Part shown: one piece after another, positions 13,584 to 60,247 of the stretch
Layout: every line of letters begins with the position of its first letter
Position numbering within the stretch: the stretch's first letter is position 1
Assembly (NCBI RefSeq): GCF_001695855.1
Contig: NZ_MBSS01000030.1
Location: forward strand, 1 to 60,829
From: Ensifer sp. LC163
GTDB lineage: Bacteria; Pseudomonadota; Alphaproteobacteria; Rhizobiales; Rhizobiaceae
DNA length: 60,829 nucleotides
Reading direction: 5' to 3'
Notes under the pieces: generated by a model
Database searches by the model: none
The model's input: the letters and a program-made list of their open reading frames with translations, nothing else
What the model was told of the DNA's origin: nothing
Position numbers and translations under genes: made by a program

Positions 13584-13622
13584 GGCCAATGCACGGGCCT
13601 GCGCCTACTCTCGGGCCGGTGG

Positions 13623-18684: not shown

Positions 18685-18717
18685 TTTCTCAGTTCCTGCT
18701 GGGTGTGGGTGACCGCG

Positions 18718-18753
18718 GGGCAGCCTTTAGACGGGAATTGCCGAAGGCTGCCC
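18718..18753. terminator. 10-bp-stem hairpin between cupin and efflux genes
   Basis: GGGCAGCCTT at 18718-18727 is exactly complementary to AAGGCTGCCC at 18744-18753, with a 16-base loop. There is no T-run on either strand. It lies just downstream of the cupin stop and probably limits read-through or stabilises the transcript. Confidence 0.5.
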
Positions 18754-18776
18754 GCGCGGAAAAACGTTCGATGCGG

Positions 18777-19196: not shown

Positions 19197-19270
19197 TCTC
19201 CTTTGAGAGTATCTATCGGGAAGTGGCGCCCGGTCCCGGGCGAGGCTCTTCTGTTTTGTCCGCGCAAGCC

Positions 19271-20023: not shown

Positions 20024-20265
20024 GGGTTTTCTCCGCTTTTCCCGACCGCAACCATTGCCGTCTATGCAAATGGAGAGTACCTGCGGGTATGCGAGAAGTC
20101 CTTGAGGCAGGCTTGAATTGCCCTTGGAGGATGCTTGAATATATGTCCAAGACGCCTGCCTGGCCGACGCCCTTGCGGGCGGGTGGGCGGGCCAGGCGTT
20201 CGCCATCGATGTCAGATATTTTTCGTCAGTTGCCTCGGCCGGGAGCCGGTGGCGCGCGGTCAGGG

Positions 20266-21870
20266 ATGCCGGCCTTGCGGTTCATGTTTGGAGACTACGT
20301 GCTCGATCAGGAGCGCAGGGAACTGACCTTGCGCGGGCAAGTCGTGGGCGTTGGACCGCAGGTCTTCGACCTTCTGCTGCACCTGGTGGCGAACCGCAAC
20401 CGGGTCGTCAGCAAGGACGACCTGCTGGAGGCGGTGTGGGGCGGCCGGGTGGTCTCGGAATCGACGATCACCAGCCACATCAACGCGGTTCGCAAGGCCA
20501 TCGGAGACAGCGGCGAGGAGCAGCGCCTGGTTCGCACGATCGCGCGCAAGGGCTTCCGCTTCGTGGGCGACATCGCGGTCGATGAGACCGGACAGGCACG
20601 CCAGCCTGGCGGGGCTGGCGCCACTGAAGACGCCTCCGACAGATTGAAGGAGCAACCGTCTGCGCTGGTACTTCCGGACAAGCCATCCATGACCGTCCTG
20701 CCGTTCCAGAACCTGAGCGGCGATCCGGAGCAGGAGTATTTTGCCGACGGCGTGGTCGAAGACATCATCACGGCGTTGTCGCGCATCCGCTGGCTGTTCG
20801 TCATCGCGCGCAATTCGAGCTTTACCTACAAGGGCCGAGCGGTGGATGTGAAGGAAGTCGGCCGGGAACTGGGCGTGCGCTATGTGCTCGAAGGCAGCCT
20901 GCGCAAGGCCGGCAACCAGGTGCGCATCACCGGGCAACTGATCGACGCCACGACCGGCGCGCATCTGTGGGCAGAGCGCTTCGAGGGCACGCTCGACAAC
21001 ATCTTCGAACTTCAGGATCAGATTTCGGCAAGCGTCGTCGGCGCGATCTCGCCGCAACTCGAACGGGCGGAAATCGAGCGCGCCAAGCGCAAGCCGACGG
21101 AAAGCCTGGATGCCTACGACTACTACCTGCGCGCCATGGCAAAGCTGCATATCGGCACCCACGAAGCGATCGAGACGGCACGCACCCTGTTCTACAAGGC
21201 AATCGAGCTCGACCCCGAATTTGCATCAGCCTATGGCGGGGCGGCCTGGTGTTATTTCTGGCGCAAGCTGAACGGCTGGATGGTCGACCGACCCCGCGAG
21301 ATCGCCGAAGGCGTGCGGCTGGCGCGGCTGGCCGTGGAACTTGGCCGGGATGATGCGGTGGCGCTGACGCGAGGCGGGCACGCGCTCGGGCATCTTGCCG
21401 GCGATCTTGACGGCGGCATCGCGCTCATCGACAGGGCGCGGCTGCTCAATCCCAATTTTGCCCCCGCCTGGTTCCTCGGCGCGGCGCTGCGCGTTTTCCG
21501 TGGTGAAACGGGGAGCGCGATCGAGGATCTAGCGCATGCCGTTCGCCTGAGCCCGTTGGATCCGGAGATGTTTCGCATGCAGGCCGCGACGTCTCTCGCG
21601 CATTTTTTTGCCGGGCGCTTCGATTCCGCCTCTGCCTGGGCGGAAAAGGCGCTCGGGAACTTGCCGAGCCTGCTGGTCGCAGCCGCCCTGTTGGCGTCGA
21701 GCCAAGCGCTTGCGGGAAGACAAGAGGAAGCGCGGCAGGCGATGCAGCGCCTGCGCACGCTCGACCCATCCTTGCGCATCTCCAACCTCAAGGACTGGCT
21801 TCCGATCCATCGCTCGGAGGATTTTGCGCGGTTCGCCGATGGCCTGCGCCGGGCGGGGTTGCCCGAGTGA
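20266..21870 (+). CDS. Winged-helix (OmpR/CadC-type) regulator with TolB/FlgO-like and TPR domains
   Basis: About 534 aa. An N-terminal OmpR-type DNA-binding domain (FGDYVLDQERRELTLRGQ, then SESTITSHINAVRKAIGD and TIARKGFRFVGDI) is followed by the region found in many rhizobial CadC-like regulators and adenylate cyclases (SMTVLPFQNLSGDPEQEYFA, AVDVKEVGRELGVRYVLEGS). Helical TPR-like repeats follow to the end. There is no clear membrane helix, so it is probably cytoplasmic. The start is uncertain: ATGs at 20209, 20266 and 20284 are in frame; 20266 is used because the conserved domain begins just after it. It likely regulates the divergent NmrA-cupin-efflux genes. Confidence 0.8.
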   Translation: MPALRFMFGDYVLDQERRELTLRGQVVGVGPQVFDLLLHLVANRNRVVSKDDLLEAVWGGRVVSESTITSHINAVRKAIGDSGEEQRLVRTIARKGFRFVGDIAVDETGQARQPGGAGATEDASDRLKEQPSALVLPDKPSMTVLPFQNLSGDPEQEYFADGVVEDIITALSRIRWLFVIARNSSFTYKGRAVDVKEVGRELGVRYVLEGSLRKAGNQVRITGQLIDATTGAHLWAERFEGTLDNIFELQDQISASVVGAISPQLERAEIERAKRKPTESLDAYDYYLRAMAKLHIGTHEAIETARTLFYKAIELDPEFASAYGGAAWCYFWRKLNGWMVDRPREIAEGVRLARLAVELGRDDAVALTRGGHALGHLAGDLDGGIALIDRARLLNPNFAPAWFLGAALRVFRGETGSAIEDLAHAVRLSPLDPEMFRMQAATSLAHFFAGRFDSASAWAEKALGNLPSLLVAAALLASSQALAGRQEEARQAMQRLRTLDPSLRISNLKDWLPIHRSEDFARFADGLRRAGLPE

Positions 21871-46289: not shown

Positions 46290-46962
46290 TTGCGAGCCAT
46301 TAAAATCATTCGACCCGATCCTCCTGGAGGGACTGGTTAGTTTATATTCTGGAAAAAGTGACCTCGAGATCGTCGCCAAGGGCGAAAACGCGGTCGATGC
46401 TTTGAAAATTGTTGAAGAAATTTCGCCGCATGTCCTCGTGCTTGATCTGAGCATGCCCGGCAACGCCATGGCCGCCATCGAACGGATCGGGCAGAACTAT
46501 CAAGCTACGCGGATTATTGTCTTTACAGCAAATTCGAGCATTGAAACAGCGATCCAAGCGCTGAACTATGGCGTTACGGGCTATGTGCTCAAAGGCAGCA
46601 GCGCCGATGATCTGCATGAAGCGATCCGGGTTGTGCATGACGGCGACACATTCATCACTGCCGGCTTTGCCACAAAGGTCATGATGGCCATGAAGACCGC
46701 AGACCTTCGCCGTCGTACCCAAGCGCAAAAGCGCCTGAGCCTGCGCGAAGAACAGATCGTTCGCCATCTCATGCGTGGCAGCACGAACCGTGAGATCGCC
46801 GCCTGTCTCGACATCACCGAGACGACCGTGAAACACTACATGACCATGCTGATGCATAAGCTTGACGCACGGAACCGCGTCGAGGTTGTACTTGCCGCCC
46901 AGAAGTTGAACGTGATTGCTGATGGCGGTGCCAACCGGGGGATGTCCGGGCGGTTCAAATGA
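46290..46962 (+). pseudogene. NarL-type response regulator with damaged receiver N-terminus
   Basis: The frame from about 46314 reads PILLEGLVSLYSGKSDLEIV ... VLVLDLSMPG (phospho-acceptor region), a Lys-containing YVLKGSSADDLHEAI, and a full LuxR helix-turn-helix (LSLREEQIVRHLMRGSTNRE, IAACLDITETTVKHYMTMLM). Just upstream, 46290-46313 reads LRAIKIIR in another frame. The DDH acidic residues expected between these pieces are missing, as if 8 or 11 bases were deleted. A shortened protein from TTG 46402 is possible but would lack the first receiver strand. Confidence 0.65.
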
Positions 46963-47453: not shown

Positions 47454-48644
47454 GGCCTTTATCAACCAAAAACAGCTACTGCTGATTTGACGATAATCCC
47501 GCCGTCCAGACTTCTGCGCATTTGGCGACCGGTAGCAGCGCGAAAGACCTGCAGCAATTGCAGTGCCGGCGGCACCCGCGACCACATGGTTTTCATGCGT
47601 TCCCTGCCATTTCGGCTTTTCCGCACCACCTGGCCCGTCACAATGCGCTGTGACCATCGGAAACCGATCTCGTGGAAATACAGGTCGGCATGCTGCGGGC
47701 TGATATGATGAAAGACGCCGGCAATTGTGCGGCGGACGCGGGAATTGAAACCTTCGACCGAATTGACATGAACGTCGTCACGAACGTATTCGCGGCTGGA
47801 ATGCTTCACGGTATCATGCCTGGTATAGTTCTCGCCAAGGGCCATGAACGCTGTCGCCTCATCGCTCATCAAATAGGCGTCGGGATCGATCTGCGCTTCG
47901 GCGGTGCGCGCCGCTGCGCGGAGCGAAAGACCCGTCACTACCGCAGCACGCGCGTCACCGGCCGGAGTGCCGGGTGTGACGTCATCTGGTCGCTGCACGA
48001 TCACCATGACAGGCGTCTTCTGGGTGTTCGGTAGACCTTTTCGGCCTCGTCCAGGCGGTGGATCATCCGGATTTATTCTCGCTCGCCCACCGAGATAGAA
48101 ATGGTCGATCTCCACCGTGCCATCGAGCATGCGCTCGCGCGCCGCCATGAGACGCAGCGCGTGTCCCATCCGCCAGGCCGTCGGTTGACTCACCCCCAGA
48201 GCCTCGGCCAGGCGCACCGAGGACAAACCTTTATCCGACTGCAGAATAAGCCACATGCCCTTCAGCCAGACACTCAGAGGAAGCTTTGTGGAATGCAGCG
48301 GCGTGTGTGTCGTCACCGTAAACTGGAAGCGACAATCGCCGCTGGAGCATTGATAGAGACCCGGGCGCGCACGCCGCTTGCCCATATCGCGCCCGGCGAT
48401 TGCGATCGAGCGCTTGTAACCACAGGCAGGGCAAACTCTCCCGGCCGGCCACACCATGCTTTCCAGCAATCGCCGACACTGCTCCTCATCGCGAAACGCC
48501 ACGATCATATCTTCCGCGGTCCGAATGTTGGTTAGCGCTGCAAGCATCGTTTCCGACATTCTCATCTCCCCCGGATCATGCCCGAAGAATCGCACGGCAA
48601 TCCCTAGACAGCAAGGCTATTGCTGTCTTTGGTTGATAAAGGCC
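47454..48644 (-). mobile_element. Intact IS1595-family insertion sequence (1191 bp)
   Basis: The left end (47454 on) starts GGCCTTTATCAACCAAAAAC and the right end read inward starts GGCCTTTATCAACCAAAGAC, inverted repeats that match at 23 of the first 25 positions. One transposase gene fills the element. An 8-bp duplication (ATGTATCG) flanks both sides. All signs point to an intact and fairly recent insertion. Confidence 0.9.
47462..48559 (-). CDS. IS1595-family transposase
   Basis: A 365-aa transposase. An N-terminal zinc ribbon (CPACGYKRSIAI ... CSSGDCRFQF) precedes a helix-turn-helix (VRLAEALGVSQPTAWRMGHA) and the DDE/DDN core (GTVEIDHFYLGG, MSDEATAF, HVNSVEGFNSRVRRTIAGVF). The ATG at 48559 follows GGGGGAG by six bases. 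The stop codon lies inside the left inverted repeat, 8 bases from the end of the element. No frameshift, so likely active. Confidence 0.9.
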   Translation of the reverse strand: MSETMLAALTNIRTAEDMIVAFRDEEQCRRLLESMVWPAGRVCPACGYKRSIAIAGRDMGKRRARPGLYQCSSGDCRFQFTVTTHTPLHSTKLPLSVWLKGMWLILQSDKGLSSVRLAEALGVSQPTAWRMGHALRLMAARERMLDGTVEIDHFYLGGRARINPDDPPPGRGRKGLPNTQKTPVMVIVQRPDDVTPGTPAGDARAAVVTGLSLRAAARTAEAQIDPDAYLMSDEATAFMALGENYTRHDTVKHSSREYVRDDVHVNSVEGFNSRVRRTIAGVFHHISPQHADLYFHEIGFRWSQRIVTGQVVRKSRNGRERMKTMWSRVPPALQLLQVFRAATGRQMRRSLDGGIIVKSAVAVFG

Positions 48645-48701: not shown

Positions 48702-49598
48702 TCACTCTACGAAGCGGTTAGCCGGTAGTCCGCGAACACCGGGGTTTACTGCGAACACCGCGCCTTCCTGTGGGTTGGCTGCCAGGTGTTCATCGCGCAT
48801 CGTGAAGCGTGCTGAAGTTACGAAAAGAGTCTCAAATCCAGGCCCGCCGAATGTGCAACTTGTCGGCCAGGAACAGGGCAGTTCGACGACGCGATCTATC
48901 CTGCCATCCGGGGCAAATCGAACGACGCAGCCGCCGCCCGCAACGCGACAATTCCATATGAAACCTTCGGCGTCCACGCAGGATCCATCCGGCCGGCCTC
49001 GTTCAAACCCCGAAAGAATGGTTCGCCGATTGCGTAGCAACCCAGACTCTCTATCGAGCTTGTAGCTGTAGATAGCGTTTTCTTCGGTGTCCGCCGTGAT
49101 GAGGCGGCCGTCGCTGGTCCAAATGAGCGTGTTTGTGATGCCAAAGCGGTCATCACATACGGGACGCAATTCTCCGTGCGCATAGCGATAGAGCCTTCCT
49201 GTTTTAGCCGACATCGCAAGCGGCGTGCCGTCGGCGGCGATGTTGTCTTGCATCGTCCCCACCCAGAAGCTGCCGTCCGGTGCGACGACGCCTTCATTCA
49301 GTCGGTTGCCTGGCTGTTCAGGCTCGACCTCCGTCACAAAACGAAGTGGCCCGTCGAAGTCCCATAGCGCGATCGACTTTCTCGACCCGACAATTGCGCC
49401 ACCATCGGCTCGAAGACCGATCGAAGTGACCAGATCGGGAACGCGCCATGTTTCATGCTTGCGAGACGTTGGGCAGAACCGGTGGATCGCTTTCCCCACG
49501 ATGTCGACCCAACAAAGCTTGTGCTGTCGATCATCCCATACTGCACTCTCGCCGACGATATTTTCCGCCACGAGGACAACGCCAACTTCGACTCTCAT
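48702..49598 (-). CDS. SMP-30/gluconolactonase family lactonase
   Basis: A 299-aa six-bladed propeller of the SMP-30/regucalcin family, which opens sugar lactones using a divalent metal. Metal-site motifs are visible: E in NIVGESAVWD, N in NRLNEGVVAPDGSFWVGTM, the ITNTLIW region and D in GRPDGSCVDAEGFIW. AGAGGAG two bases before the ATG at 49598 fixes the start. Divergent from the GntR operon with a shared operator, it is the likely lactonase between the SDR dehydrogenase and the acid dehydratase of the sugar pathway, comparable to XylC of Caulobacter. Confidence 0.88.
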   Translation of the reverse strand: MRVEVGVVLVAENIVGESAVWDDRQHKLCWVDIVGKAIHRFCPTSRKHETWRVPDLVTSIGLRADGGAIVGSRKSIALWDFDGPLRFVTEVEPEQPGNRLNEGVVAPDGSFWVGTMQDNIAADGTPLAMSAKTGRLYRYAHGELRPVCDDRFGITNTLIWTSDGRLITADTEENAIYSYKLDRESGLLRNRRTILSGFERGRPDGSCVDAEGFIWNCRVAGGGCVVRFAPDGRIDRVVELPCSWPTSCTFGGPGFETLFVTSARFTMRDEHLAANPQEGAVFAVNPGVRGLPANRFVE

Positions 49599-49627
49599 AA
49601 CTCCTCTGACTGTCTTCAAAATGGTTC

Positions 49628-49656
49628 TTGACACACAGCTTACCTATAAATTATGA
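49628..49656 (+). promoter_or_regulatory. Probable rightward promoter of the sugar operon
   Basis: TTGACA (49628-49633), 17-base spacer, TTATGA (49651-49656). It precedes the gntR gene by about 50 bases, and the palindromic operator lies just downstream of the -10, near the expected transcription start. Confidence 0.5.
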
Positions 49657-49669
49657 CTCAGTTCAATTC

Positions 49670-49686
49670 AACCTGTCGGACAGGTT
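49670..49686. promoter_or_regulatory. Perfect 17-bp palindrome, probable GntR operator
   Basis: AACCTGTC-G-GACAGGTT is a perfect inverted repeat about a central G. It lies between the divergent lactonase and gntR starts, 21 bases before the gntR ATG, where a bound repressor would block the rightward promoter and could affect the leftward one. Its length and symmetry fit FadR-subfamily GntR operators. Confidence 0.7.
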
Positions 49687-49707
49687 TTATCAAACCGGGA
49701 GACGAAA

Positions 49708-50430
49708 ATGACCATGGCGCCCCTTGACGAAGAGCAATTTGCATCCGGCAATCTCGTCGGCACAGCTATCGGCGCCATTACCCAGCACATCCGGACAAAC
49801 GAGCTTGGCCCGGGCGATCGGCTTCCGAGCGAGGCTACGCTGTCGAAGGAACTGAGCGTCTCACGATCGGTGGTTCGTGAAGCTTTCCGGTCACTCGCCA
49901 CCATGCGGCTGATTGATCTCAACGTCGGAAAGCGCGCGACCGTGGCTCTACTTGATCATGGCGCAATGTCCCTGATGATCGAGCACGGCGTGCACACCGC
50001 CCAGATCAACATCAATCAGGTTTATGACGTGCGCCGCACGATCGAAATGCGAACGGCGACGCTAGCGGCGTTGAGGCGAACGGATGCGGAAGCGCGCATC
50101 ATCCTCGACCACGCGCAGGCGATGGAGCAGAATTTCGCCGATGCGGACAAGGTCATGGAAAGCGACCTTGCCTTTCACCTGGAGATCGCGCGCGCCTCCA
50201 AGAACCCGATCTTCTCCATCATTGTCGGAGCGTTTCAAGGTGTCTCTCGACAGACCTGGCCGATCGGGTGGCGCAGTCGCGCCTCCGACGCGGAGCGGTA
50301 CGCCATGAATCGCATCCATATTGAGTTAGCTGAGGCGATCCGTGCCGGCGATCCGCAGGCCGCCAGCCAGCTTATGGCTCGCCATTTTGATGAGAGTGCC
50401 AAAGCACTGATCGCTGCCGGTATCGCTTAA
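49708..50430 (+). CDS. GntR family (FadR subfamily) transcriptional regulator
   Basis: A 240-aa regulator with an N-terminal winged helix (GDRLPSEATLSKELSVSRSV, VREAFRSLATMRLID) and a C-terminal FCD ligand-binding domain (VYDVRRTIEMRTATLAALRR, SDLAFHLEIARASKNPIF, with metal-site histidines near HIELAEAI and ARHFDESA). Start ATG 49708 with GGGAG. First gene of the rightward operon and probably its repressor, with a pathway intermediate as inducer. Confidence 0.9.
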   Translation: MTMAPLDEEQFASGNLVGTAIGAITQHIRTNELGPGDRLPSEATLSKELSVSRSVVREAFRSLATMRLIDLNVGKRATVALLDHGAMSLMIEHGVHTAQININQVYDVRRTIEMRTATLAALRRTDAEARIILDHAQAMEQNFADADKVMESDLAFHLEIARASKNPIFSIIVGAFQGVSRQTWPIGWRSRASDAERYAMNRIHIELAEAIRAGDPQAASQLMARHFDESAKALIAAGIA

Positions 50431-50441
50431 AGGATAGCCCT

Positions 50442-51644
50442 ATGCAAATAACGAGACTTGAAACGCTCCGCGTCGCGGAGCGACCGAACCTGCTTTGGCT
50501 GCTCGTACATACGGACGAGGGACTGAGCGGACTTGGAGAAACTTTCTTCGGCGCCGAGACTGTCGAAGCCTACATCCACGAGTATGTCGCGCCGCGCGTT
50601 ATCGGCCGAAACCCGCTCCAGATCGATCTTCTCGCGACTGACCTGGTGGGTTACCTCGGGTTTCGCTCGTCCGGTGCGGAGGTACGCGGCAATTCGGCCT
50701 TTGACATTGCACTCTGGGATATATTCGGAAAGGCGACTGGTCAACCTATCGCGCAACTGCTCGGTGGCTTCAGTCGCAATGAAATCCGGACCTATAACAC
50801 CTGCGCCGGTACGGAATACATCAAGAAGGCGACTGGCCAGACAACGGCGAACTACGACCTATCCTCTGCGGCCAGCCGCAACTACGACGACCTGAATGGT
50901 TTCCTCCATCGCGCCGACGAACTTGCCTTGTCTCTCCTGGAGGAGGGCATTACCGCGATGAAGATATGGCCATTCGACATCGCAGCGGAAAAGACGCGCG
51001 GCCAATATATTTCGGTTCCTGATCTTAAATCGGCGTTGGTACCGTTTGAGAAGATCCGCGCCGCGGTCGGCGATCGTATGGACATAATGGTCGAGTTCCA
51101 TTCGATGTGGCAGCTCTTGCCGGCAATGCAGATTGCCCGCGCGCTCGAGCCGTACCAGACATTCTGGCACGAAGACCCCATCAAGATGGACAGCCTCTCG
51201 AGCCTCAAGCGTTATGCGGCGGTCTCGCCTGCGCCGATTTCAGCGTCGGAAACTTTGGGTTCGAGATGGGCCTTCCGCGACCTCTTGGAAACTGACGCTG
51301 CAGGCGTGGTCATGCTGGACATAAGCTGGTGTGGCGGACTGTCGGAGGCGCGGAAGATCGCCGCGATGGCGGAGGCATGGCATCTCCCGGTTGCGCCGCA
51401 CGATTGCACTGGTCCGGTCGTACTTTGCGCTTCGACGCACCTGTCACTCAACGCCCCCAATGCGTTGGTTCAGGAGAGCGTTCGAGCCTTCTACAAAACC
51501 TGGTACCGCGACCTGGTGACGGCGCTTCCAGAAGTTCGAAACGGAATGATCACGGTCCCACCCGGTGCAGGTCTCGGGATGGAGCTCAACCCAGACCTCG
51601 AAAAGGCATTCACGGTGTCACGCCGCGTCTCAAGCGCGGACTGA
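50442..51644 (+). CDS. Enolase-superfamily (mandelate racemase/muconate lactonizing) sugar-acid dehydratase
   Basis: A 400-aa enzyme of the MR/MLE group. The capping domain (GLSGLGETFFGAETVEAYIH) is followed by a TIM barrel with a Lys at AMKIWPFD and three metal ligands in MVEFHSMW, WHEDPIK and SASETLG. A general acid/base His lies in APHDCTGP. This pattern belongs to acid-sugar dehydratases. In the pathway it should convert an aldonate into a 2-keto-3-deoxy acid, replacing the IlvD/EDD-type dehydratase of classical xylose and arabinose loci. The exact sugar is unknown. Confidence 0.88.
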   Translation: MQITRLETLRVAERPNLLWLLVHTDEGLSGLGETFFGAETVEAYIHEYVAPRVIGRNPLQIDLLATDLVGYLGFRSSGAEVRGNSAFDIALWDIFGKATGQPIAQLLGGFSRNEIRTYNTCAGTEYIKKATGQTTANYDLSSAASRNYDDLNGFLHRADELALSLLEEGITAMKIWPFDIAAEKTRGQYISVPDLKSALVPFEKIRAAVGDRMDIMVEFHSMWQLLPAMQIARALEPYQTFWHEDPIKMDSLSSLKRYAAVSPAPISASETLGSRWAFRDLLETDAAGVVMLDISWCGGLSEARKIAAMAEAWHLPVAPHDCTGPVVLCASTHLSLNAPNALVQESVRAFYKTWYRDLVTALPEVRNGMITVPPGAGLGMELNPDLEKAFTVSRRVSSAD

Positions 51645-51684
51645 AGAAATTCGACAGCAATCTGCAGCTTAAGGAGGAGTAAGC

Positions 51685-52665
51685 ATGCGAACGGTTTTGA
51701 TTGTAAGTGCATTAGGGTTGGCGCTTCTCGGCTCGAGCGCGCTTGGCGCATCGGCCGAGCCGTTGAAGATCGTCTTTACACATCACTCGTCGGCTTCGAA
51801 TACGTTCTGGCAAGCGGTGAAGAAGGGGTTTGACGACGCCTGTGAGAAGATCGCGGCAAGCTGCCAGATGGTGTTTACACAGACTGAAGGGTCTGTGGAA
51901 CAACAACTCTCCAACATGGAAGCTGCGTTGGCGAGCAAGCCCGACGCGCTTCTGACCTCCATCGTTGATGACAAGGCGTTTGACGACGTCATCGCGCGGG
52001 CCACCAAGAATGGCGTGGAGGTGATCGGCGTCAACGTTGATGACAGCGAGGGAGCGAAAGGAAACGCGCGCGCCGCTTTCGTCGGACAGGGCTTCCGAAA
52101 AGCCGGGTACTCGCTCGGGAAGGCGATGTCAGAGAATTTTCCGAAAGAAGGACCGATCAAGGTACTCGTCGGGATCTCGGCGCCGGGGCAGAATTGGTCT
52201 GAAGCACGCGGGCAGGGCGTGATGGACTTCCTTGAGGAGTTTAAGGCTGCAAATCCTGGCCGTGACATCTCTTGGGAACGGATCGACAGTGGAACGGACC
52301 TTGCGGTCACGTCGGATCGTGTTGGCGCCTTTCTCAACGCGCAGCCCGACACGACAGCCTACTTCGACACCGGCTTCTGGCATGCTGCCGTAGCGCGCAT
52401 GCTCAAGGACCGTGGGGTCGCACCAGGCAAGGTGCTCCTGGGCGGTTTCGATCTTGTGCCCGAGGTCGTCCAGCAAATGCAGACTGGCTATGTCCAGGTG
52501 CAGGTCGATCAGCAGCCCTACATGCAGGGATTCATGCCTGTCATGCAGGTCTATCTCGCCCGGAATTTTGGCCTCGCTCCGGCGGAAATCGATACGGGGC
52601 AGGGGATCGTGCGCCCGGAAGATGCCGACAATATCATGGACCTGTCTGCAAAGGGCCTGAGGTAA
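51685..52665 (+). CDS. Sugar ABC transporter substrate-binding protein (type 1 periplasmic fold)
   Basis: A 326-aa exported protein. The signal peptide is VLIVSALGLALLGSSALGAS then AEP. The mature part is a ribose-binding-like fold (KIVFTHHSSASNTFWQAVKK, GFDDACEKI, VEVIGVNVDDSEGAKGN, GYVQVQVDQQPYMQGFMPVM). AAGGAGGAG precedes the ATG. It delivers a monosaccharide to the adjacent permease. The ligand is presumably the pentose or related sugar used by the pathway. Confidence 0.88.
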   Translation: MRTVLIVSALGLALLGSSALGASAEPLKIVFTHHSSASNTFWQAVKKGFDDACEKIAASCQMVFTQTEGSVEQQLSNMEAALASKPDALLTSIVDDKAFDDVIARATKNGVEVIGVNVDDSEGAKGNARAAFVGQGFRKAGYSLGKAMSENFPKEGPIKVLVGISAPGQNWSEARGQGVMDFLEEFKAANPGRDISWERIDSGTDLAVTSDRVGAFLNAQPDTTAYFDTGFWHAAVARMLKDRGVAPGKVLLGGFDLVPEVVQQMQTGYVQVQVDQQPYMQGFMPVMQVYLARNFGLAPAEIDTGQGIVRPEDADNIMDLSAKGLR

Positions 52666-52806
52666 GCGCCTCTCTCCAACGCTCAAGCGATTAGAGAGTA
52701 ACGAATCGATCAAGCATCGGCTTTGCGCGGCAACAGTGGCGCGCAAAGCCATGAATTTGGCTGGAGGCCTGCGAACGAGCAGCCCTGCCGCACGGGAGTG
52801 CATGTA

Positions 52807-53784
52807 ATGAAAAGAATGCTGAAAATGTACATGGAGAAGCCGGAACTGGCGGCGCTTCTCCTCCTCTTTCTCTTGATTGTTCTCTTTCAGATAAGGTCGG
52901 GAGGCGTCTTCTTGAGCCTTGATAATCTGCGAGGCTTCTTTGGGATCCTGCCGGAAATGGCGCTGGTAGCGATCGGCGTCACAGTTTTGATGATTTGCGG
53001 TGAATTCGATCTGTCGGTGGGAGCGGTGTTCGCCCTGATGCCGATGACGATGGCAGTCCTGATGGCCATGGGGATCGCGTTCCCGTTGGCCTTTATCGCG
53101 GGCGTGCTGGTCTGCGTGGCAATAGGATTCCTGAACGGCTTTCTGACGATCCGGTTCGCCATTCCGAGTTTCATCACCACGCTTGGCATGATGTTTGTGG
53201 CGAGGTCTCTCACCGTGGTGATCTCCGGCGGCTTTCCGCCACTCCTGCCGGCTGATCTTCCCATATGGCTCTTCACCAGTTTCGTGGGGCCAGGGCAACT
53301 TCTTCGCATGTCGTTCATCTGGTTCGTCGTCATTGCTGTCCTTGTGTCTCTGCTTCTGAACCGGACGAACCTGGGAAACTGGATACGAGCAACTGGCGGG
53401 TTCCTGCCGGCCGCAGATGCGCTCGGGATCCCGACGGCGCGCGTCAAGATTGCCTGCTTCATTCTGTGTTCGGTGCTTAGCGGCTTTGCCGGGCTTATTC
53501 AGGTGCTGCGCCTTGGCTCGCCGCTGCCTTCGATTGGCGAGGGTATGGAGCTCCAGGCCGTCGCCGCAGCCGTCATTGGCGGAACCGCCTTGAATGGCGG
53601 AGTGGGGGCCGTCCTCGGGGGCATCATTGGCGTCGTGCTCATCCGTGTCATCGATAACGGTCTGATCCTCAGCCAAGTCGATGCCAACTGGTTCAAGTTC
53701 GCGATCGGAGCACTGACCATCTTTGCGGTCGTCGCCAATTCATGGCTGCGCAAGCGGGCCAAAGCGATTAAGGTGGAGATCTGA
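52807..53784 (+). CDS. Sugar ABC transporter permease (RbsC-like)
   Basis: A 325-aa inner-membrane permease of the BPD transp 2/RbsC family with eight to ten hydrophobic segments. Family landmarks are GEFDLSVGAVFALMPMTMA, GFLNGFLTIRFAIPSFITTL and the C-terminal GGTALNGGVGAVLGGIIGVV. The ATG at 52807 has GGGAG eight bases upstream; the frame extends to 52723 but that part is not membrane-like. Three bases separate its stop from the ATPase start. Confidence 0.9.
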   Translation: MKRMLKMYMEKPELAALLLLFLLIVLFQIRSGGVFLSLDNLRGFFGILPEMALVAIGVTVLMICGEFDLSVGAVFALMPMTMAVLMAMGIAFPLAFIAGVLVCVAIGFLNGFLTIRFAIPSFITTLGMMFVARSLTVVISGGFPPLLPADLPIWLFTSFVGPGQLLRMSFIWFVVIAVLVSLLLNRTNLGNWIRATGGFLPAADALGIPTARVKIACFILCSVLSGFAGLIQVLRLGSPLPSIGEGMELQAVAAAVIGGTALNGGVGAVLGGIIGVVLIRVIDNGLILSQVDANWFKFAIGALTIFAVVANSWLRKRAKAIKVEI

Positions 53785-53787
53785 GCG

Positions 53788-54519
53788 ATGAACGGTCCAA
53801 TTGTTTCCGTCAAAAACCTGCACAAATGGTATTCCGGCGTTCATGCCCTTAGGGGTGTCTCGGTCGATTTCGCGCGCAATGAAGCTGTCGGCCTGATCGG
53901 CGACAACGGTGCGGGCAAGTCGACGCTGATCAACATCCTTTCCGGTGTCCAGAAGCAGGACGAAGGTCGCATTTTTGTCGAAGGCAAGGAGGCGACGATA
54001 TCAAGTCCGCGTGACTCGATGCGGCTCGGTATCGAGACCATCTATCAATACAACTCCATGGTGCCGACCATGTCGATCGCTCGGAATCTCTTCATTGGCC
54101 GCGAGCCGATCAAGTACTCCCTCTTCGGCATTGGCGTGCTCGACATGCGCAAGATGCGCAAGGAGAGCGTACAGGCCATCGCGGATGTCGATCTGCACCT
54201 GCGCTCGCCCGACGCTTTGGTTGGCGAACTCTCGGGCGGCCAACGACAGGGCGTCGCTATCGCGCGAGCCATGCACTTCAAGTCGAAAGTCATGATCCTC
54301 GACGAGCCGACAAATCACCTGTCGGTGAAGGAAACCAATAAGGTCATAGGTTTCGTTCGCTCGTTGAAGGAACAGAACGTCACCGGCATCTTCATCAGCC
54401 ACAATATGCACCACGTGTTCGAGTCCTGCGACCGGGTTGTCGCTATGGCGCGTGGGCAGATCGTGCTCGACAGGCGCGTCAGCGAGACGTCGATCGACGA
54501 AGTTCAATCCGTGCTCTGA
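53788..54519 (+). CDS. Sugar ABC transporter ATP-binding protein, single-domain
   Basis: A 243-aa nucleotide-binding protein. Walker A is GDNGAGKSTL, signature ELSGGQRQGVAIARAM, Walker B VMILDEPTNHLSVKE. Ribose-type importers usually carry a fused double-domain ATPase (about 500 aa), so a single domain that would work as a homodimer is the fructose (FrcA)-like arrangement. It completes the importer with the binding protein and permease. Confidence 0.9.
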   Translation: MNGPIVSVKNLHKWYSGVHALRGVSVDFARNEAVGLIGDNGAGKSTLINILSGVQKQDEGRIFVEGKEATISSPRDSMRLGIETIYQYNSMVPTMSIARNLFIGREPIKYSLFGIGVLDMRKMRKESVQAIADVDLHLRSPDALVGELSGGQRQGVAIARAMHFKSKVMILDEPTNHLSVKETNKVIGFVRSLKEQNVTGIFISHNMHHVFESCDRVVAMARGQIVLDRRVSETSIDEVQSVL

Positions 54520-54531
54520 GGAGGAATGCAG

Positions 54532-55272
54532 GTGAAACCACTTGAGGGAAGGGTGGCGCTGGTCACAGGCGGTCTCGGCACGCTCGGTCGCGCGCAGACC
54601 AGTAAACTCAGCGCCGAAGGCGCGACCGTCATCGTGCTCGATCGCCCCGGTCACGAGGGACAGGCCACAACGCAAGGCCTTGGCGAGAATGCGCGCTTTC
54701 TCGGTTGTGATCTCAACGACCTTGCGCGGTCAGAGCAACTCATTCGAGAGGAGGCCGAGGCATCAGGCGGCATCGACATCCTGATCAACAACGCTGCGCT
54801 CATCATCAACAAGCCGTTCCAGGACTTCAGCCTCGAGGAGTACGAGGATCAAATCCGCGTCAATTCCTCGGCTGCTTTTGCAGCGGTGCGAGCCTGTGCC
54901 GAGTGGATGAAACAAAAACGAAGCGGAAAGATCCTCAACTTCGCGTCCATCACACTCAACGGACAGTGGGATGGTTATGTGCCCTATGTCGCTTCGAAGG
55001 GGGCGATGATCGGCCTGACGAAGTCGCTTGCGCGGGAACTCGGCCCCCATGGCATCAACGTCAATGCCATCTCCCCCGGAGCCGTCATCTCCGAGGCCGA
55101 AAACCGTGTCTTTGCAGATCGACTTCAGGAGTACAACGATTGGGTTCTGGAGCGGCAATGCATCAAGGCACGTCTCAAGCCCGAGGACGTGGCGGAGCTT
55201 GTCTATTTCCTCGTTTCCCCGGCCTCAGACATGATCACGGGTCAGAACTTCGCCATTGACGGCGGTTGGTAG
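54532..55272 (+). CDS. SDR family sugar dehydrogenase
   Basis: A 246-aa classical short-chain dehydrogenase. The cofactor loop is TGGLGTLG near residue 13, NNAAL follows strand 4, and the catalytic Y152-x3-K156 is in YVASKGAM. It ends in the usual GQNFAIDGGW. A GTG start at 54532 is chosen because GGAGGA then sits seven bases upstream; the ATG at 54526 would leave almost no spacing. The length and role match Caulobacter XylB: oxidation of the sugar to its lactone, the first step of the pathway. Confidence 0.85.
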   Translation: MKPLEGRVALVTGGLGTLGRAQTSKLSAEGATVIVLDRPGHEGQATTQGLGENARFLGCDLNDLARSEQLIREEAEASGGIDILINNAALIINKPFQDFSLEEYEDQIRVNSSAAFAAVRACAEWMKQKRSGKILNFASITLNGQWDGYVPYVASKGAMIGLTKSLARELGPHGINVNAISPGAVISEAENRVFADRLQEYNDWVLERQCIKARLKPEDVAELVYFLVSPASDMITGQNFAIDGGW

Positions 55273-56172
55273 ATGGTTGTCGAACGGGTCACCGTCGAGA
55301 ACGGCAGCGCGCACCTGCAGCTCGTTCCGGCGCTTGGCGGTGGGATCGCGGAGCTTGATGTGCGAACTGCGAGCGGAGACTGGGTTCCTGTATTGAGGCC
55401 CTGGCATGGCCGGTTGGAGGATGGTCCCTTCGAACTGGGATGTAACGTCCTGGTTCCGTTTTCGAACCGCATTTCCGGGGGCGGTTTCGAGCATGACAGT
55501 GAGTTCCATCGCGTGCCTGCCAACCTTGCCGGCGAGCCGTTCCCTATTCACGGCGACGGCTTCCAGCGGCACTGGCACTTGCTTGCTCACAATGGTGAGA
55601 CAGTGGAACTCGGATGCGATGGGGAGATCGGTCCATTTCGCTATCGGGCTTGGCAGCTCTTTACCCTTCGGGACGACAGGCTGGTGGTGGAGCTGCGCGT
55701 CCAAAACCTCTCGCAGCAAGCGCTACCTTTCGGCATTGGGTTCCATCCGTGGTTTCCGCGAAATGAGGGCACTCGGCTGAAATTTCGGGCCACGGAGTTT
55801 TGGCTAGAGGACGGCAATCATCTTCCCGCTGGTCGGCGGAGCATTTGCGAGGTTCCGGACCGGAACTTTGGCGACGGCCGGGCACTGCCCGAGCATTGGA
55901 TTAACAACGCCTTCGGTGGGTGGGCGCGAGAAGCGATCATTTCCCAGGAGGCGGGGGCCGCTTCGGTCAAGATCACTGTTTCCGATACTCTTGGATATGC
56001 GCTGGTCTATTCGCCAGGATCGAAGGCGGACTTCTTTTGTTTCGAGCCGGTTTCCCACCCGGTAGACGCACATAATCTCGTTGGCCGTCCGGGTTTAAGG
56101 GTACTCGAACGTCATGAGGAACTGACGGCTTCAATGACGCTGAATTGGGATGAACGATATGGAACTCGATAA
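55273..56172 (+). CDS. Aldose 1-epimerase (galactose mutarotase) family protein
   Basis: A 299-aa beta-sandwich mutarotase-like protein. The substrate-site histidines are in PIHGDGFQRHWH and GIGFHPWFPR, and the acid Glu is probably in CFEPVSHPVDAHN. It interconverts sugar anomers, supplying the form required by the dehydrogenase. Its ATG follows the SDR stop with no spacing, so translation is coupled. Confidence 0.85.
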   Translation: MVVERVTVENGSAHLQLVPALGGGIAELDVRTASGDWVPVLRPWHGRLEDGPFELGCNVLVPFSNRISGGGFEHDSEFHRVPANLAGEPFPIHGDGFQRHWHLLAHNGETVELGCDGEIGPFRYRAWQLFTLRDDRLVVELRVQNLSQQALPFGIGFHPWFPRNEGTRLKFRATEFWLEDGNHLPAGRRSICEVPDRNFGDGRALPEHWINNAFGGWAREAIISQEAGAASVKITVSDTLGYALVYSPGSKADFFCFEPVSHPVDAHNLVGRPGLRVLERHEELTASMTLNWDERYGTR

Positions 56173-57295
56173 GTCTGGCACCTTCGTTGGTCGTGTGTGG
56201 TCATCTGAGGAACAGGGACCGGTGTTGGTGACTGTCAGGGCAGGCGTAGTCTTCGACATCACGTCGAAAGAGGCGCCAACGATGCGGGATCTCGCGGAGA
56301 TGGATGATCCTGTTAGATACGTCAGGGCGCAACGGGGGAGGGCGATCTGCGATCTGGTGGAGCTCCTCTCGGCAATTCCTGCGAAGTCCGAAACGCCACG
56401 GATCCTCGCACCATGTGACCTCCAGGCGATCAAAGCCTGCGGCGTCACCTTCGCACGATCGATGCTCGAAAGAGTCATCGAAGAGCGCGCTGCCGGCAAT
56501 CCAGAACGTGCCTCCGAAATCCGCGAGCGCGTGACAATGCTCGTCGGCGATAGCTTAAGCAACCTCAAGGCCGGCTCACCGGCGGCGGCAAAGGTCAAGC
56601 AGGCGCTGATCGAAGAAGGCGTATGGTCCCAATATCTCGAAGTCGGGATCGGTCCCGACGCCGAAGTCTTCACCAAAGGCCAGGTTATGTCAGCCGTCGG
56701 CTACGGGGATGAAGTGGGTCTGCACCCGATTTCGAGATGGAATAACCCCGAGCCCGAGGTCGTGCTGGTTGTCAACAGTAGAGGCATAGTCAAGGGAGCC
56801 ACGCTCGGTAATGACGTGAACTTGCGTGATGTTGAAGGGCGGTCAGCACTCTTGCTTGGCAAGGCCAAGGACAACAACGCATCCTGCGCGCTCGGACCGT
56901 TCATTCGGCTGTTCGACGAGAGCTATTCGCTCGACGACGTGCGCAATGCAGAGCTAAATTTGCGGATAGAAGGCCAGGATGGGTATGCGCTGACAGGCCG
57001 GAGTTCCATGAAGGAAATCAGCCGCGACCCGCTTGACCTCGTCGCACAGACCATCGGTGACCACCATCAGTACCCCGATGGCTTCATGTTGTTTATGGGC
57101 ACACTGTTTGCGCCCGTTGAAGATCGCGACGTTCCAGGTCAGGGTTTTACGCACAAGATCGGGGATCTAGTCACAATCTCGAATCGGCAACTCGGGGAAC
57201 TGGTGAACACGGTGCGTCTGTCGACCGAGTGTAGCCCCTGGACATTTGGCACATCGCACCTGATGCGTAATCTTGTGGCGCGCCGGCTGATCTGA
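56150..57295 (+). CDS. FAH-family 2-keto-3-deoxy sugar-acid dehydratase (XylX-like)
   Basis: A 381-aa fumarylacetoacetate-hydrolase-family protein. The size and N-terminal arrangement (FVGRVWSSEEQGPVLVTVRA) resemble Caulobacter XylX, the 2-keto-3-deoxy-D-xylonate dehydratase. Metal ligands are expected at E201 and E203 (NNPEPEVVLVV) and the Asp of LGNDVNLRD. It would convert the 2-keto-3-deoxy acid to 2-oxoglutarate semialdehyde, which the next gene oxidises. ATGs at 56150 and 56159 are possible; either overlaps the mutarotase gene. A hydrolase role, as in the fucose route, is the main alternative. Confidence 0.82.
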   Translation: MNDMELDKSGTFVGRVWSSEEQGPVLVTVRAGVVFDITSKEAPTMRDLAEMDDPVRYVRAQRGRAICDLVELLSAIPAKSETPRILAPCDLQAIKACGVTFARSMLERVIEERAAGNPERASEIRERVTMLVGDSLSNLKAGSPAAAKVKQALIEEGVWSQYLEVGIGPDAEVFTKGQVMSAVGYGDEVGLHPISRWNNPEPEVVLVVNSRGIVKGATLGNDVNLRDVEGRSALLLGKAKDNNASCALGPFIRLFDESYSLDDVRNAELNLRIEGQDGYALTGRSSMKEISRDPLDLVAQTIGDHHQYPDGFMLFMGTLFAPVEDRDVPGQGFTHKIGDLVTISNRQLGELVNTVRLSTECSPWTFGTSHLMRNLVARRLI

Positions 57296-57307
57296 AGGGA
57301 ACCGACC

Positions 57308-58741
57308 ATGACATTGCACCAGAACCTGATTGCCGGCGAATGGGTTGGCGGTGATGGCGTTGCCAACATCAACCCGTCCGACACCAACGACGTGATCGGG
57401 GACTATGCCCGCGCCTCGGCCGAGGATGCCAAGGCGGCGATCGCCGCCGCCAAGGCGGCGTTTCCGGCCTGGTCGCGCTCCGGCATTCTCGAACGCCACG
57501 CCATCCTGCGAAAGACCGCCGACGAGATTTTGGCGCGCAAGGACGAACTCGGGCGGCTGTTGTCGCGCGAGGAAGGCAAGACGCTGGCCGAAGGCATCGG
57601 CGAGACGGTGCGCGCCGGCCAGATCTTCGACTTCTTCGCCGGCGAGACACTGCGACTGGCCGGCGAGGTCATTCCCTCGGTGCGCCCGAACATCGGCGTC
57701 GAGATCACCCGCGAGCCGGTCGGCGTCGTCGGCATCATCACGCCGTGGAATTTTCCGATCGCCATTCCCGCCTGGAAGATCGCGCCGGCGCTGTGCTACG
57801 GCAACACCATCGTCTTCAAGCCGGCCGAACTGGTGCCCGGCTGCTCATGGGCGATCGTCGACATTCTCATGCGCGCCGGCCTGCCGAGGGGCGTGTTGAA
57901 CCTGGTGATGGGCAAGGGCTCGGTCGTCGGCCAGGCGATGCTCGACAGCCCCGACATCCAGGCGATCACCTTTACCGGCTCGACCGGCACCGGCAAACGC
58001 GTGGCGCTGGCCTCGGTCGAGCACAATCGCAAGTACCAGCTGGAAATGGGCGGCAAGAACCCGTTCGTGGTGCTCGACGATGCCGATCTCGGTGTTGCCG
58101 TCGAAGCCGCCGTCAACTCCGCCTTCTTCTCCACCGGCCAGCGCTGCACCGCCTCGTCGCGCATCATTGTCACCGACGGCATCCACGACCGCTTCGTGGC
58201 GGCGATGGGGGAACGGATGAAGGGCCTCGTCATCGACGATGCGCTGAAGGCCGGCACCCATATCGGCCCGGTGGTCGACCAGAGCCAGCTCAACCAGGAC
58301 ACCGACTATATCGCCATCGGCAAACAGGAAGGCGCCAGGCTCGCCTTCGGCGGCGAACTGCTGCAGCGCGACACGCCCGGCTTCTACCTGCAGCCGGCGC
58401 TGTTTACCGAGGCGACCAATGCGATGCGCATCTCGCGCGAGGAGATCTTCGGACCGGTCGCGTCGGTGATCCGGGTGAAGGACTATGACGAGGCACTCAG
58501 CGTTGCCAACGACACGCCGTTCGGGCTGTCGTCGGGCATTGCCACCACCAGCCTCAAACACGCGACGCATTTCAAGCGCCAGGCCGAGGCCGGCATGGTG
58601 ATGGTCAACCTGCCGACCGCCGGCGTCGATTTCCACGTGCCGTTCGGCGGCCGCAAGGGCTCCTCCCACGGCGCGCGCGAGCAGGGCCGCTATGCCGCCG
58701 AATTCTACACCACCGTCAAGACGGCCTACACCTTGGCTTAA
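57308..58741 (+). CDS. Aldehyde dehydrogenase, probable 2-oxoglutarate semialdehyde dehydrogenase
   Basis: A 477-aa NAD(P)-dependent aldehyde dehydrogenase. Catalytic C280 is in FSTGQRCTAS, E246 in YQLEMGGKNP and N148 in TPWNFPIAIP. The N-terminal ANINPSDTNDVIGDYARAS and the C-terminal AYTLA resemble 2-oxoglutarate semialdehyde dehydrogenases of pentose-acid routes. It would produce 2-oxoglutarate for the TCA cycle. Third codon positions are almost all G or C, clearly more so than in the upstream genes of the operon, so it may have a separate origin. Confidence 0.88.
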   Translation: MTLHQNLIAGEWVGGDGVANINPSDTNDVIGDYARASAEDAKAAIAAAKAAFPAWSRSGILERHAILRKTADEILARKDELGRLLSREEGKTLAEGIGETVRAGQIFDFFAGETLRLAGEVIPSVRPNIGVEITREPVGVVGIITPWNFPIAIPAWKIAPALCYGNTIVFKPAELVPGCSWAIVDILMRAGLPRGVLNLVMGKGSVVGQAMLDSPDIQAITFTGSTGTGKRVALASVEHNRKYQLEMGGKNPFVVLDDADLGVAVEAAVNSAFFSTGQRCTASSRIIVTDGIHDRFVAAMGERMKGLVIDDALKAGTHIGPVVDQSQLNQDTDYIAIGKQEGARLAFGGELLQRDTPGFYLQPALFTEATNAMRISREEIFGPVASVIRVKDYDEALSVANDTPFGLSSGIATTSLKHATHFKRQAEAGMVMVNLPTAGVDFHVPFGGRKGSSHGAREQGRYAAEFYTTVKTAYTLA

Positions 58742-58954: not shown

Positions 58955-59629
58955 ATGCCCACTACGAAAACTGTAGCCAACGAGCCCCGAAACGATTCTT
59001 CCAACGTTGCGCTCTCGATGAAGCTGCCCCGGAAGGCAGATTTCGAGAAGGCGTTGATCAGGCAATACGCCAAGGCGGTTAAGCTGAGCCGAAAGGCCGG
59101 CCATCAGGTCAGTTTCCGTGTCGTCGTGGATCCGCTGGCCGGAGCGCAGACAATCTCAGTCGTTGAAGAAGAACCGCTGTCTCATCAGGATGCGTTTCCA
59201 GTTGAAGAGGTACCAGAGCCGAATGACGAACTCCAGGCAGCGTTGGCTGCCGCACGGGAGCGCGGCCGGCGTCGGGTGGCGGAGATTCTCGCGGAGGATG
59301 ATATGTTGAGCGCGGAAGCGTTCGCGGACCTGCTCGGCGTTTCGCGCGTCACGGTCAACACAAAGCGTCAGAACGGGCAGGTTCTCGGACTCGACGGCGC
59401 CAAGCGGGGCTTCCGTTTTCCGTCATGGCAACTCGATCGGGATGGTCGGCCCTATGCCGTGCTTCCGAAACTGCACGAGGTCCTCGGTGGTGCATGGGCG
59501 GTTTACCGCTTCCTTGTCACGCCGCACGGCGCTTTGGATGGCCGGAAGGGTCTCGACGCGCTGAAACGCGGTCAGGATGATGAAGTGGTTGCAGCGGCCG
59601 AGAGTGTCGCCCGCGGTGATTTTCGCTGA
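58955..59629 (+). CDS. Xre/MbcA-ParS-type antitoxin
   Basis: A 224-aa protein. The N-terminal part is polar; the middle has a helix-turn-helix (MLSAEAFADLLGVSRVTVNT). The C-terminal toxin-binding domain (FRFPSWQLDRDGRPYAVLPK, LHEVLGGAWAVYRFL) is typical of the MbcA/ParS/Xre antitoxins that partner RES toxins. It would neutralise the toxin and repress the promoter upstream. GGAGG is 8 bases before the ATG. The toxin gene follows with no gap. Confidence 0.85.
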   Translation: MPTTKTVANEPRNDSSNVALSMKLPRKADFEKALIRQYAKAVKLSRKAGHQVSFRVVVDPLAGAQTISVVEEEPLSHQDAFPVEEVPEPNDELQAALAAARERGRRRVAEILAEDDMLSAEAFADLLGVSRVTVNTKRQNGQVLGLDGAKRGFRFPSWQLDRDGRPYAVLPKLHEVLGGAWAVYRFLVTPHGALDGRKGLDALKRGQDDEVVAAAESVARGDFR

Positions 59630-60247
59630 ATGACCGGAATAAAGCCGCCTCCGGGTTTCGAGAAATCCCTCCTCGACATCGAGACTATTCCTGCCGGTCG
59701 TCGATTTGGACGTATCTATGCGAGCGCCTTTCCCGACCCGTTAGGATATGGAAAGACGCCGAGCCGGTTCAGTGATCCCCGCCGGCGTGACCCGGCAAGG
59801 CGGTTTGGCGTCGTCTATTTGGGCGACACACTCAAGGTCTGCTTCCTGGAAGCGGTCCTGCGTGATAGGCGCGATGGTCTCGTGGGCGATCTCCCGATCG
59901 AGGAGAAGGAGATCTATGCGCGGCGTTATTCAGAGATTGAGACGATCGCGGATCTCCGCCTTGTTGATCTCCGCGCGGACCACGCGATCAGAATGGGAGT
60001 GCCGACGGATGTCGCGAAATCTTCCCGCCAAACCCTTGCGAGGGCGTGGTCGCTTGCCTTCCATGAGCACCGATCCGTGCCGGACGGCATAATCTATCCA
60101 TCTCGCCTGAATGGACATACGAATCTTGCGATCTTTGACCGCGCCATCTCAAAGTTGTCGGCGGTACGCGTCGTGCCATTGATTGGAGCACCAAGCCTTG
60201 CCACCGTCATAAACGATCTTCGCGTGAGCCTCGTCGACATCATCTGA
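59630..60247 (+). CDS. RES-domain toxin
   Basis: A 205-aa RES-domain protein. The conserved Arg is in GRRFGRIYAS, a Glu in VCFLEAVLRD and a Ser in DGIIYPSRLNG. RES toxins (such as MbcT and Res) degrade NAD+, halting growth when the antitoxin is lost. The ATG directly follows the antitoxin stop. The frame is intact and the domain complete. It may stabilise this replicon or the adjacent sugar island. Confidence 0.88.
   Translation: MTGIKPPPGFEKSLLDIETIPAGRRFGRIYASAFPDPLGYGKTPSRFSDPRRRDPARRFGVVYLGDTLKVCFLEAVLRDRRDGLVGDLPIEEKEIYARRYSEIETIADLRLVDLRADHAIRMGVPTDVAKSSRQTLARAWSLAFHEHRSVPDGIIYPSRLNGHTNLAIFDRAISKLSAVRVVPLIGAPSLATVINDLRVSLVDII

Follow-up and report, generated by a model that had tools for sequence, protein, structure and literature searches.

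Which sugar is degraded, and by which route, through the gene cluster at positions 48,702 to 58,741 of contig NZ_MBSS01000030.1 from Ensifer sp. LC163? The window analyzed here is the whole stretch of 60,829 nucleotides, part of a 6.52-Mb genome. A divergent lactonase gene is followed in it by genes for a GntR regulator, an enolase of the mandelate racemase/muconate lactonizing enzyme (MR/MLE) type, an ATP-binding cassette (ABC) importer, a short-chain dehydrogenase/reductase (SDR), a mutarotase, a FAH-family protein and an aldehyde dehydrogenase (ALDH). The locus is probably a GntR-controlled operon for import of an aldopentose and its oxidation to 2-oxoglutarate via a Weimberg-type route, in which an MR/MLE protein stands where the xylose and L-arabinose loci of bacteria have an IlvD/EDD dehydratase. 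The sugar is most likely a D-pentose; D-xylose and D-ribose are better candidates than D-arabinose and D-lyxose.

Gene Content and Proposed Pathway

The initial annotation had proposed that all five steps from aldose to 2-oxoglutarate are encoded together, accompanied by an importer, a mutarotase and a GntR regulator. The listing of open reading frames (ORFs) and Pfam bear out both parts of this gene set, all ten named genes being found at the following coordinates, each above the cut-off of the Pfam family named.

48702..49634, minus strand: putative SMP-30/gluconolactonase-type aldonolactonase (step 2), divergent; Pfam SGL, 243 bits; PDB matches to regucalcin and the 7PLB SMP-30 protein
49708..50430, plus strand: FadR/GntR (FCD) regulator; Pfam GntR and FCD
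50442..51644, plus strand: putative MR-subgroup enolase-superfamily sugar-acid dehydratase (step 3); Pfam MR_MLE_N and MR_MLE_C; 4DX3/4DXK; catalytic residues
51685..52665, plus strand: sugar-binding protein of the ABC importer (CUT2-like); Peripla_BP_4; rhizopine binding-protein model, 142 bits against a cut-off of 420
52723..53784, plus strand: ABC permease; BPD_transp_2
53788..54519, plus strand: ABC ATPase, a single domain of 243 amino acids; ABC_tran; aligns to residues 3-233 of the 501-position RbsA model, 187 bits
54526..55272, plus strand: SDR, presumed aldose 1-dehydrogenase (step 1); adh_short_C2; best PDB match 9GWU (sulfoquinovose 1-dehydrogenase), 150 bits
55273..56172, plus strand: aldose 1-epimerase (mutarotase); Aldose_epim
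56150..57295, plus strand: predicted XylX-type FAH-family 2-keto-3-deoxypentonate (KDP) dehydratase (step 4); FAA_hydrolase; 9KKT, 418 bits
57308..58741, plus strand: ALDH like alpha-ketoglutarate semialdehyde (KGSA) dehydrogenase (step 5); Aldedh; top NCBIfam match NF042993 (alpha-KGSA dehydrogenase), 540 bits against a cut-off of 770

The nine plus-strand genes lie -23 to 57 bases apart, the mutarotase and FAH genes overlapping by 23 bases, and are spaced as in a single transcription unit. The TTG start listed for the permease (52723) is probably too far upstream, with the in-frame ATG at 52807 the likelier start. The gene order is kept in same-genus genomes, three of which include the FAH gene (G007, G012 and G014) and one of these also the ALDH gene (G012, 94%), indicating that the cluster is an inherited unit.

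In the proposed mechanism, the importer would take up the aldopentose, with the operon under GntR control. The SDR would then oxidize the sugar to its lactone, which the SMP-30 protein would open. The enolase would subsequently convert the pentonate into KDP, the FAH protein would convert KDP into KGSA, and the ALDH would release 2-oxoglutarate. The top PDB match of the binding protein reaches 76 bits, so that the sugar is not readable from this protein.

The FAH Protein at Step Four

The FAH protein aligns with PDB entry 9KKT over nearly its full length and is 52-53% identical to 9KKT and 9KKV, whose truncated titles concern altering the activity of 2-keto-3-deoxy-D-xylonate de[hydratase]; an AlphaFold model from a shallow alignment (mean pLDDT 65.7) served only to reach the titles of its PDB matches. 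In the alignment from the 9KKT search, Glu114, Glu143, Glu145, Asp164 and Lys182 of KdaD correspond to E172, E201, E203, D222 and K240, which are invariant in 10/10 aligned sequences, the window's included. Thus the glutamate equivalent to KdaD Glu114 (E172) and the metal ligands (E201, E203, D222) that mark the XylX type are all in place. In KDP dehydratases the C3 proton is abstracted by a specific glutamate, while a His/Glu pair is found in the C-C hydrolase of that superfamily (PMC6336799); with the dehydratase-type glutamate and the relation to 9KKT, a hydrolase yielding pyruvate, which the initial annotation had named as a possible refutation, is unlikely. Assignment as a XylX-type KDP dehydratase is well supported by these comparisons and in turn supports the Weimberg pathway (Route II), which is characterized by a KDP dehydratase of FAH or DHDPS type.

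The stereochemical preference of this family bears on the sugar. FAH-type KDP dehydratases favor D-KDP at least 35-fold and the DHDPS type favors L-KDP at least 45-fold, and a single D-KDP arises from all D-pentoses (PMC7374468). C785_RS13680 displays a 34-fold D preference and C785_RS13710 a moderate L preference, with strict L specificity in a Paraburkholderia homologue (PMC6336799). The position of the glutamate (172 here; 182 and 138 in C785_RS13680 and C785_RS13710, respectively) suggests the C785_RS13680 type, and by analogy the window's protein would prefer D-KDP. Since FAH-type enzymes mostly prefer this isomer, a D-pentose is favored, not proven.

In a tree of 35 FAH proteins, where numerous nodes have weak support and long branches group together (L086 with L128), FAHs linked to tripartite ATP-independent periplasmic (TRAP) transporters form one clade (100/100), and the window's FAH, its genus kin and that of locus L010 form another (99/93). 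The other FAHs of importer operons are placed elsewhere with weak support. A single co-inherited clade of importer-operon FAHs was considered and is unsupported, these proteins being scattered over several places.

A second XylX-type FAH, 74% identical, was observed at 9103-10533 (minus strand) of stretch L116 (G000:C12:758001-778000), adjoining an SDR and a DAO-type oxidoreductase. FAHs about 72-74% identical are present in most genomes of the genus, even those without the MR gene.

The Enolase Proposed for Step Three

The closest solved chains to the enolase are 4DX3/4DXK (819 bits), 2POD (657) and 3DIP (353), all deposited under superfamily names alone; the window's protein belongs to the same or a near family. 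A search of open-licence papers yielded no paper on the 4DX3/2POD enolase family, and literature searches for 4DX3, 4DXK, 2POD, 9KKT and 9KKV gave nothing relevant among the titles listed. The protein falls below the cut-off in all 11 matching NCBIfam models: DgoD (NF010624), the best match, 195 bits against 311; gluconate/galactonate, 174 against 750; ManD, 155 against 550; AraD_Arch (NF040866), 120 against 650; L-talarate/galactarate, 119 against 500; L-rhamnonate, 96 against 393; and others lower. By these models it is a member of neither DgoD, nor the archaeal arabinonate dehydratases, nor the other curated hexonate families; clustering with a characterized hexonate enzyme was what the initial annotation had named as a refutation.

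Members of the MR subgroup carry three acidic metal ligands, a His-Asp dyad and a lysine on strand 2. For comparison, the DgoD encoded in the same genome (727 bits, above cut-off) was aligned with the enolase. E218, H220, E244, E270, D293, H320 and E345 align with it, so that the metal ligands, the Asp-His dyad and the acid histidine of DgoD are kept; the strand-2 motif differs and reads K-I-W. All nine positions checked are invariant in 22/22 sequences, the window's included, among them E218, E244, E270, D293, H320 and K174, which define the MR subgroup. The strand-2 motif of LyxD is KxR, and in its place KxW (K174, W176) is found in all 22. A model of the enolase from a shallow alignment had a mean pLDDT of 48 and was not used. 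The MR gene is accessory, occurring in 4/16 genomes of the genus, this one included (E <= 1e-150).

Identity of the Sugar

In enzymes of the MR subgroup, 2R acids lose their proton to the dyad and 2S acids to the second lysine of a KxK motif. Because the window's enolase keeps the dyad and is without the second lysine, D-xylonate and D-ribonate would be favored over D-arabinonate and D-lyxonate among the D-pentonates. Of the sugars proposed in the initial annotation, D-arabinose is weakened on this ground, and L-lyxose because D-KDP is the preferred isomer of most characterized FAH-type KDP dehydratases (PMC7374468, PMC6336799), which makes a D-pentose likelier. The narrower proposal, a bacterial Weimberg pathway for D-xylose or D-ribose with a 4DX3/2POD-family enolase as pentonate dehydratase, is put forward tentatively, at a little under even chances.

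The genome also encodes the xylose isomerase XylA (696 bits, cut-off 533), an IlvD like L-arabinonate dehydratase (907 bits, cut-off 882), and DgoD together with a DgoK/aldolase cluster elsewhere, which provide other candidate routes for common sugars. Wild-type S. meliloti 1021 grows on 73 carbon sources and the strain lacking pSymA on 69, and the sources include D-ribono-1,4-lactone, D-ribose, D-xylose, D-arabinose, L-arabinose and L-lyxose (PMC4207669).

Regulation

Two features in front of the gntR gene are relevant to control of the operon.

49628..49633, plus strand: TTGACA, -35-like box for the gntR operon, invariant in 6/6 aligned regions
49670..49686, no strand assigned: inverted repeat AACCTGTCGGACAGGTT, predicted GntR operator, in the gap between the lactonase and gntR genes, downstream of TTGACA

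In the ORF listing, the TTGACA box falls within the opening codons of the lactonase gene, whose true start may lie further inside. AACCTGTCGGACAGGTT is a perfect inverted repeat, present once in the window and at no site in 100 shuffles; it is the sole perfect site genome-wide, with four others at 2 mismatches. Among the 54 loci with a plus-strand gntR relative of at least 50% identity, a repeat matching at least 12 of 16 bases precedes gntR in 49, compared with 16 of 1000 random control stretches. The exact pattern AACCTGTNNNACAGGTT occurs in one place each in 16 of 20 genomes and is absent from the other 4, against 2 of 20 genomes with the reversed control pattern. Judged by this conservation, the repeat is likely the GntR operator. 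Most simply, the GntR protein would repress its own operon from one operator, with the sugar acid or KDP relieving the repression. SMa0062 and SMa0065, GntR regulators that may or may not belong to the S. meliloti 1021 operon, are listed in a bacteroid network (PMC11387232).

Neighborhoods in Other Genomes

Relatives of the enolase were found in at least 582 genome stretches, and neighborhoods were read from the best 80 loci, with fetched flanks of up to 10 kb, some cut by contig ends. Among these, 27 have the importer operon, 27 a FAH relative without the importer, and 26 neither in the fetched flanks. A XylX-like FAH is found in the flanks of 33/80 loci, namely 6 of the 27 importer operons and, by definition, the 27 of the second group. 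At locus L010 the genes gntR, MR, FAH and ALDH stand in a row, and the ALDH gene lies directly behind the FAH gene in the window, L010 and G012. Furthermore, 43 of the 47 genomes whose MR gene has no FAH nearby encode one elsewhere, compared with 7/24 order relatives outside the genus that lack the MR gene (one by partial match), a coupling with a Fisher p of 1e-10 uncorrected for kinship.

In the second group, genes for a TRAP transporter, a FadR-type regulator, a GlcD-like oxidase and D-erythronate dehydrogenase are often found with the FAH gene, as read from protein families in L060 and from annotations in L104/L107; there are also TRAP-FAH clusters in which the stretch shown contains no MR gene. 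The recurrent FAH-TRAP-FadR cluster (L104/L107, L060, L131, L132), which includes D-erythronate dehydrogenase and has MR or IlvD in its vicinity, looks like an uncharacterized sugar-acid route. FAH relatives (E <= 1e-40) were found in 280 plasmid records. In the 11 neighborhoods examined, IlvD/Edd lies within 7 kb in three, an altronate-family dehydratase with an aldo/keto reductase in one and an enolase-type dehydratase in two (Shinella, and Mesorhizobium with the MR protein about 6 kb off), five having none of these. On the Shinella plasmid (L134, 4808-8122), an SDR, an annotated L-fuconate dehydratase and a XylX-type FAH are consecutive. This type of FAH thus accompanies no fewer than three kinds of acid dehydratase, and in bacteria an enolase is combined with a FAH more than once. 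On pSymA of S. meliloti 1021 (L135, pSymA 20000-50000, about 11534-20709), the importer operon has an MR protein at 77%, encoded at about 34.2-35.4 kb of pSymA, and no FAH or ALDH beside it.

Several observations weigh against a complete pentose pathway. With regard to individual enzymes, no activity is, to our knowledge, known for the 4DX3/2POD MR family, and the SDR and the ALDH fall below the cut-off in the best 25 of 227 and the best 25 of 44 matching NCBIfam families, respectively. The presence of XylA suggests that D-xylose can do without the operon. With regard to neighborhoods, 21/27 importer operons are without a FAH in the fetched stretch (several cut short by contig ends), and among the 80 loci ALDH is found only in L010, making the complete gene set unusual. 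Four MR genomes (of L022, L083, L084 and L085) show no FAH at E <= 1e-60. A FAH of the window's type is present in 16/16 genomes of the genus, 12 of them without MR; the protein therefore has other roles, and the coupling is not exclusive. The FAH-MR locus of L060 adjoins the D-erythronate dehydrogenase and GlcD-like oxidase, which would fit another fate. The mannonate dehydratase UxuA lies directly behind the mutarotase in L068 (15628-16824) and L083 (7758-9068), at 446 and 445 bits against a cut-off of 200. A desaturase and a PanB-like gene lie behind 5/27 importer operons (L072, L077, L078, L081, L084), the copies being 84-97% identical to those of L072 and the PanB-like protein falling below its family cut-offs. 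The scan behind the importer operon covered 10 + 10 + 10 chosen ORFs, supplied by a simple ORF caller that is error-prone where GC content is high, and the remaining ORFs scanned seemed unrelated.

Alternative Explanations

These neighbors keep alive the alternative that survives best, unlikely as it is: the enolase would act on a hexonate or 6-deoxyhexonate, with FAH and ALDH serving the intermediate of another pathway. It would explain why the catalytic residues of the enolase are those of DgoD, also its top NCBIfam match, and it is consistent with the importer operons that have no FAH and with UxuA behind the mutarotase, in L083 in a genome with no FAH at the threshold given above. UxuA and the desaturase/PanB-like genes could be separate units or stand for alternative uses of the product. 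In L068, the UxuA gene has a GntR gene and TRAP genes of its own behind it and may thus constitute a separate unit. Against a hexonate stand the recurrence of the MR-FAH neighborhood, with FAHs from at least two well-supported clades, and the presence of DgoD, above its cut-off, and the DgoK/aldolase cluster elsewhere in the genome. Moreover, on chemical grounds XylX-type action on a 2-keto-3-deoxyhexonate would not yield KGSA.

Less probable still is a role in the breakdown of L-lyxose or some other L-pentose, along lines similar to the L-lyxonate pathway. In favor of it, L-lyxonate belongs to the 2R acids. Furthermore, S. meliloti 1021, whose operon has no FAH beside it, is listed as growing on L-lyxose (PMC4207669, Table 2), and one FAH/MhpD enzyme is moderately L-KDP-preferring and a Paraburkholderia homologue strict (PMC6336799). 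Against it stand the D preference, at least 35-fold, of the FAH-type enzymes tested in PMC7374468, the KxW motif of the enolase where LyxD has KxR, and the score of 100 bits for 3STP, presumably the LyxD structure.

Least probable is Route III, in which the SDR would oxidize the 2-keto-3-deoxy acid at C4, the FAH protein would hydrolyze a C-C bond to give pyruvate and glycolate, and the ALDH substrate would have another source: Herbaspirillum has this route for KDP (PMC6336799) and in L060 a GlcD-like oxidase and an SDR lie close to the FAH gene, but the dehydratase-type glutamate and closeness of the FAH to 9KKT, the lactonase and mutarotase that imply aldose oxidation, the single SDR, and the KGSA-type ALDH directly behind the FAH in the window, L010 and G012 all speak against it.

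Comparison with Known Systems

The locus would work like a Weimberg pathway; what sets it apart is a different MR family at step three, combined with a XylX-type FAH and with an importer and a regulator of its own. The Caulobacter-type D-xylose pathway has the five steps proposed here and employs an SDR, an SMP-30 lactonase, a XylX-type FAH and a KGSA dehydrogenase, all of which have presumed counterparts in the locus. In contrast to it, step three in the window is assigned to an MR-subgroup enolase rather than an Fe-S IlvD/EDD enzyme, and an ABC importer, a mutarotase and a GntR regulator are encoded with the pathway. In P. aeruginosa, LyxD is a bacterial MR-subgroup (enolase-type) pentonate dehydratase, in a route from L-lyxonate to 2-oxoglutarate; the pathway proposed here differs from that one in its KxW family, its FAH-type KDP step and its aldose start. 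With this precedent and the archaeal ones described below, the novelty of an enolase at step three is smaller than the initial annotation implied. That P. aeruginosa can grow on L-lyxonate is cited in PMC6336799.

Bacterial aldopentonate dehydratases are reported from the IlvD/EDD family, and archaeal ones are typically members of the enolase superfamily (PMC9795676); the Caulobacter-type route combines an IlvD/EDD D-xylonate dehydratase with a FAH-type D-KDP dehydratase (PMC9795676, PMC7374468). In its enolase-superfamily pentonate dehydratase, the proposed pathway resembles archaeal Route II, with the D-arabinonate dehydratase of S. solfataricus and the D-xylonate dehydratase of H. volcanii, and S. 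solfataricus also places a FAH-family KDP dehydratase after the enolase-type enzyme (PMC9795676). It differs in the low AraD_Arch score of its enolase and in its aldose dehydrogenase, an SDR here and a medium-chain dehydrogenase/reductase in S. solfataricus (PMC6336799). The D-arabinose Route II of Herbaspirillum and Paraburkholderia similarly pairs a non-IlvD dehydratase with a D-KDP-preferring FAH, a preference that the window's protein would share. Unlike the window, it employs a D-arabinonate dehydratase of the UxaA/GarD superfamily and an aldo/keto reductase (PMC6336799).

Adjacent Genes

An IS1595/ISXO2-type transposase gene (47462-48595, minus strand) lies directly behind the lactonase gene, and the operon may be on a mobile or rearranged stretch. 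On the other side, a RES-domain protein (59630-60247, plus strand) follows a protein of 224 amino acids without a Pfam match, and the two (58955-60247) are possibly a RES-type toxin-antitoxin pair. At 46402-46962 (plus strand), a response-regulator receiver domain, partial at its start, is joined to a LuxR-type helix-turn-helix; the ORF starts with TTG and is possibly 5'-shortened.

Biological Significance

The operon offers a specific assignment, that of a pentonate dehydratase feeding a XylX-type enzyme, with a candidate operator that defines its regulon. If the D-pentose reading is true, it would give a function to a widespread enolase family with solved structures, and the route would be a bacterial counterpart of the archaeal pathway that combines an enolase with a FAH enzyme. 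The single-site GntR regulon would then mark a D-pentose route across the alphaproteobacteria. Furthermore, a pentonate dehydratase without an Fe-S cluster, together with its cognate pathway, could help engineered Weimberg routes that are limited by the IlvD/EDD step.

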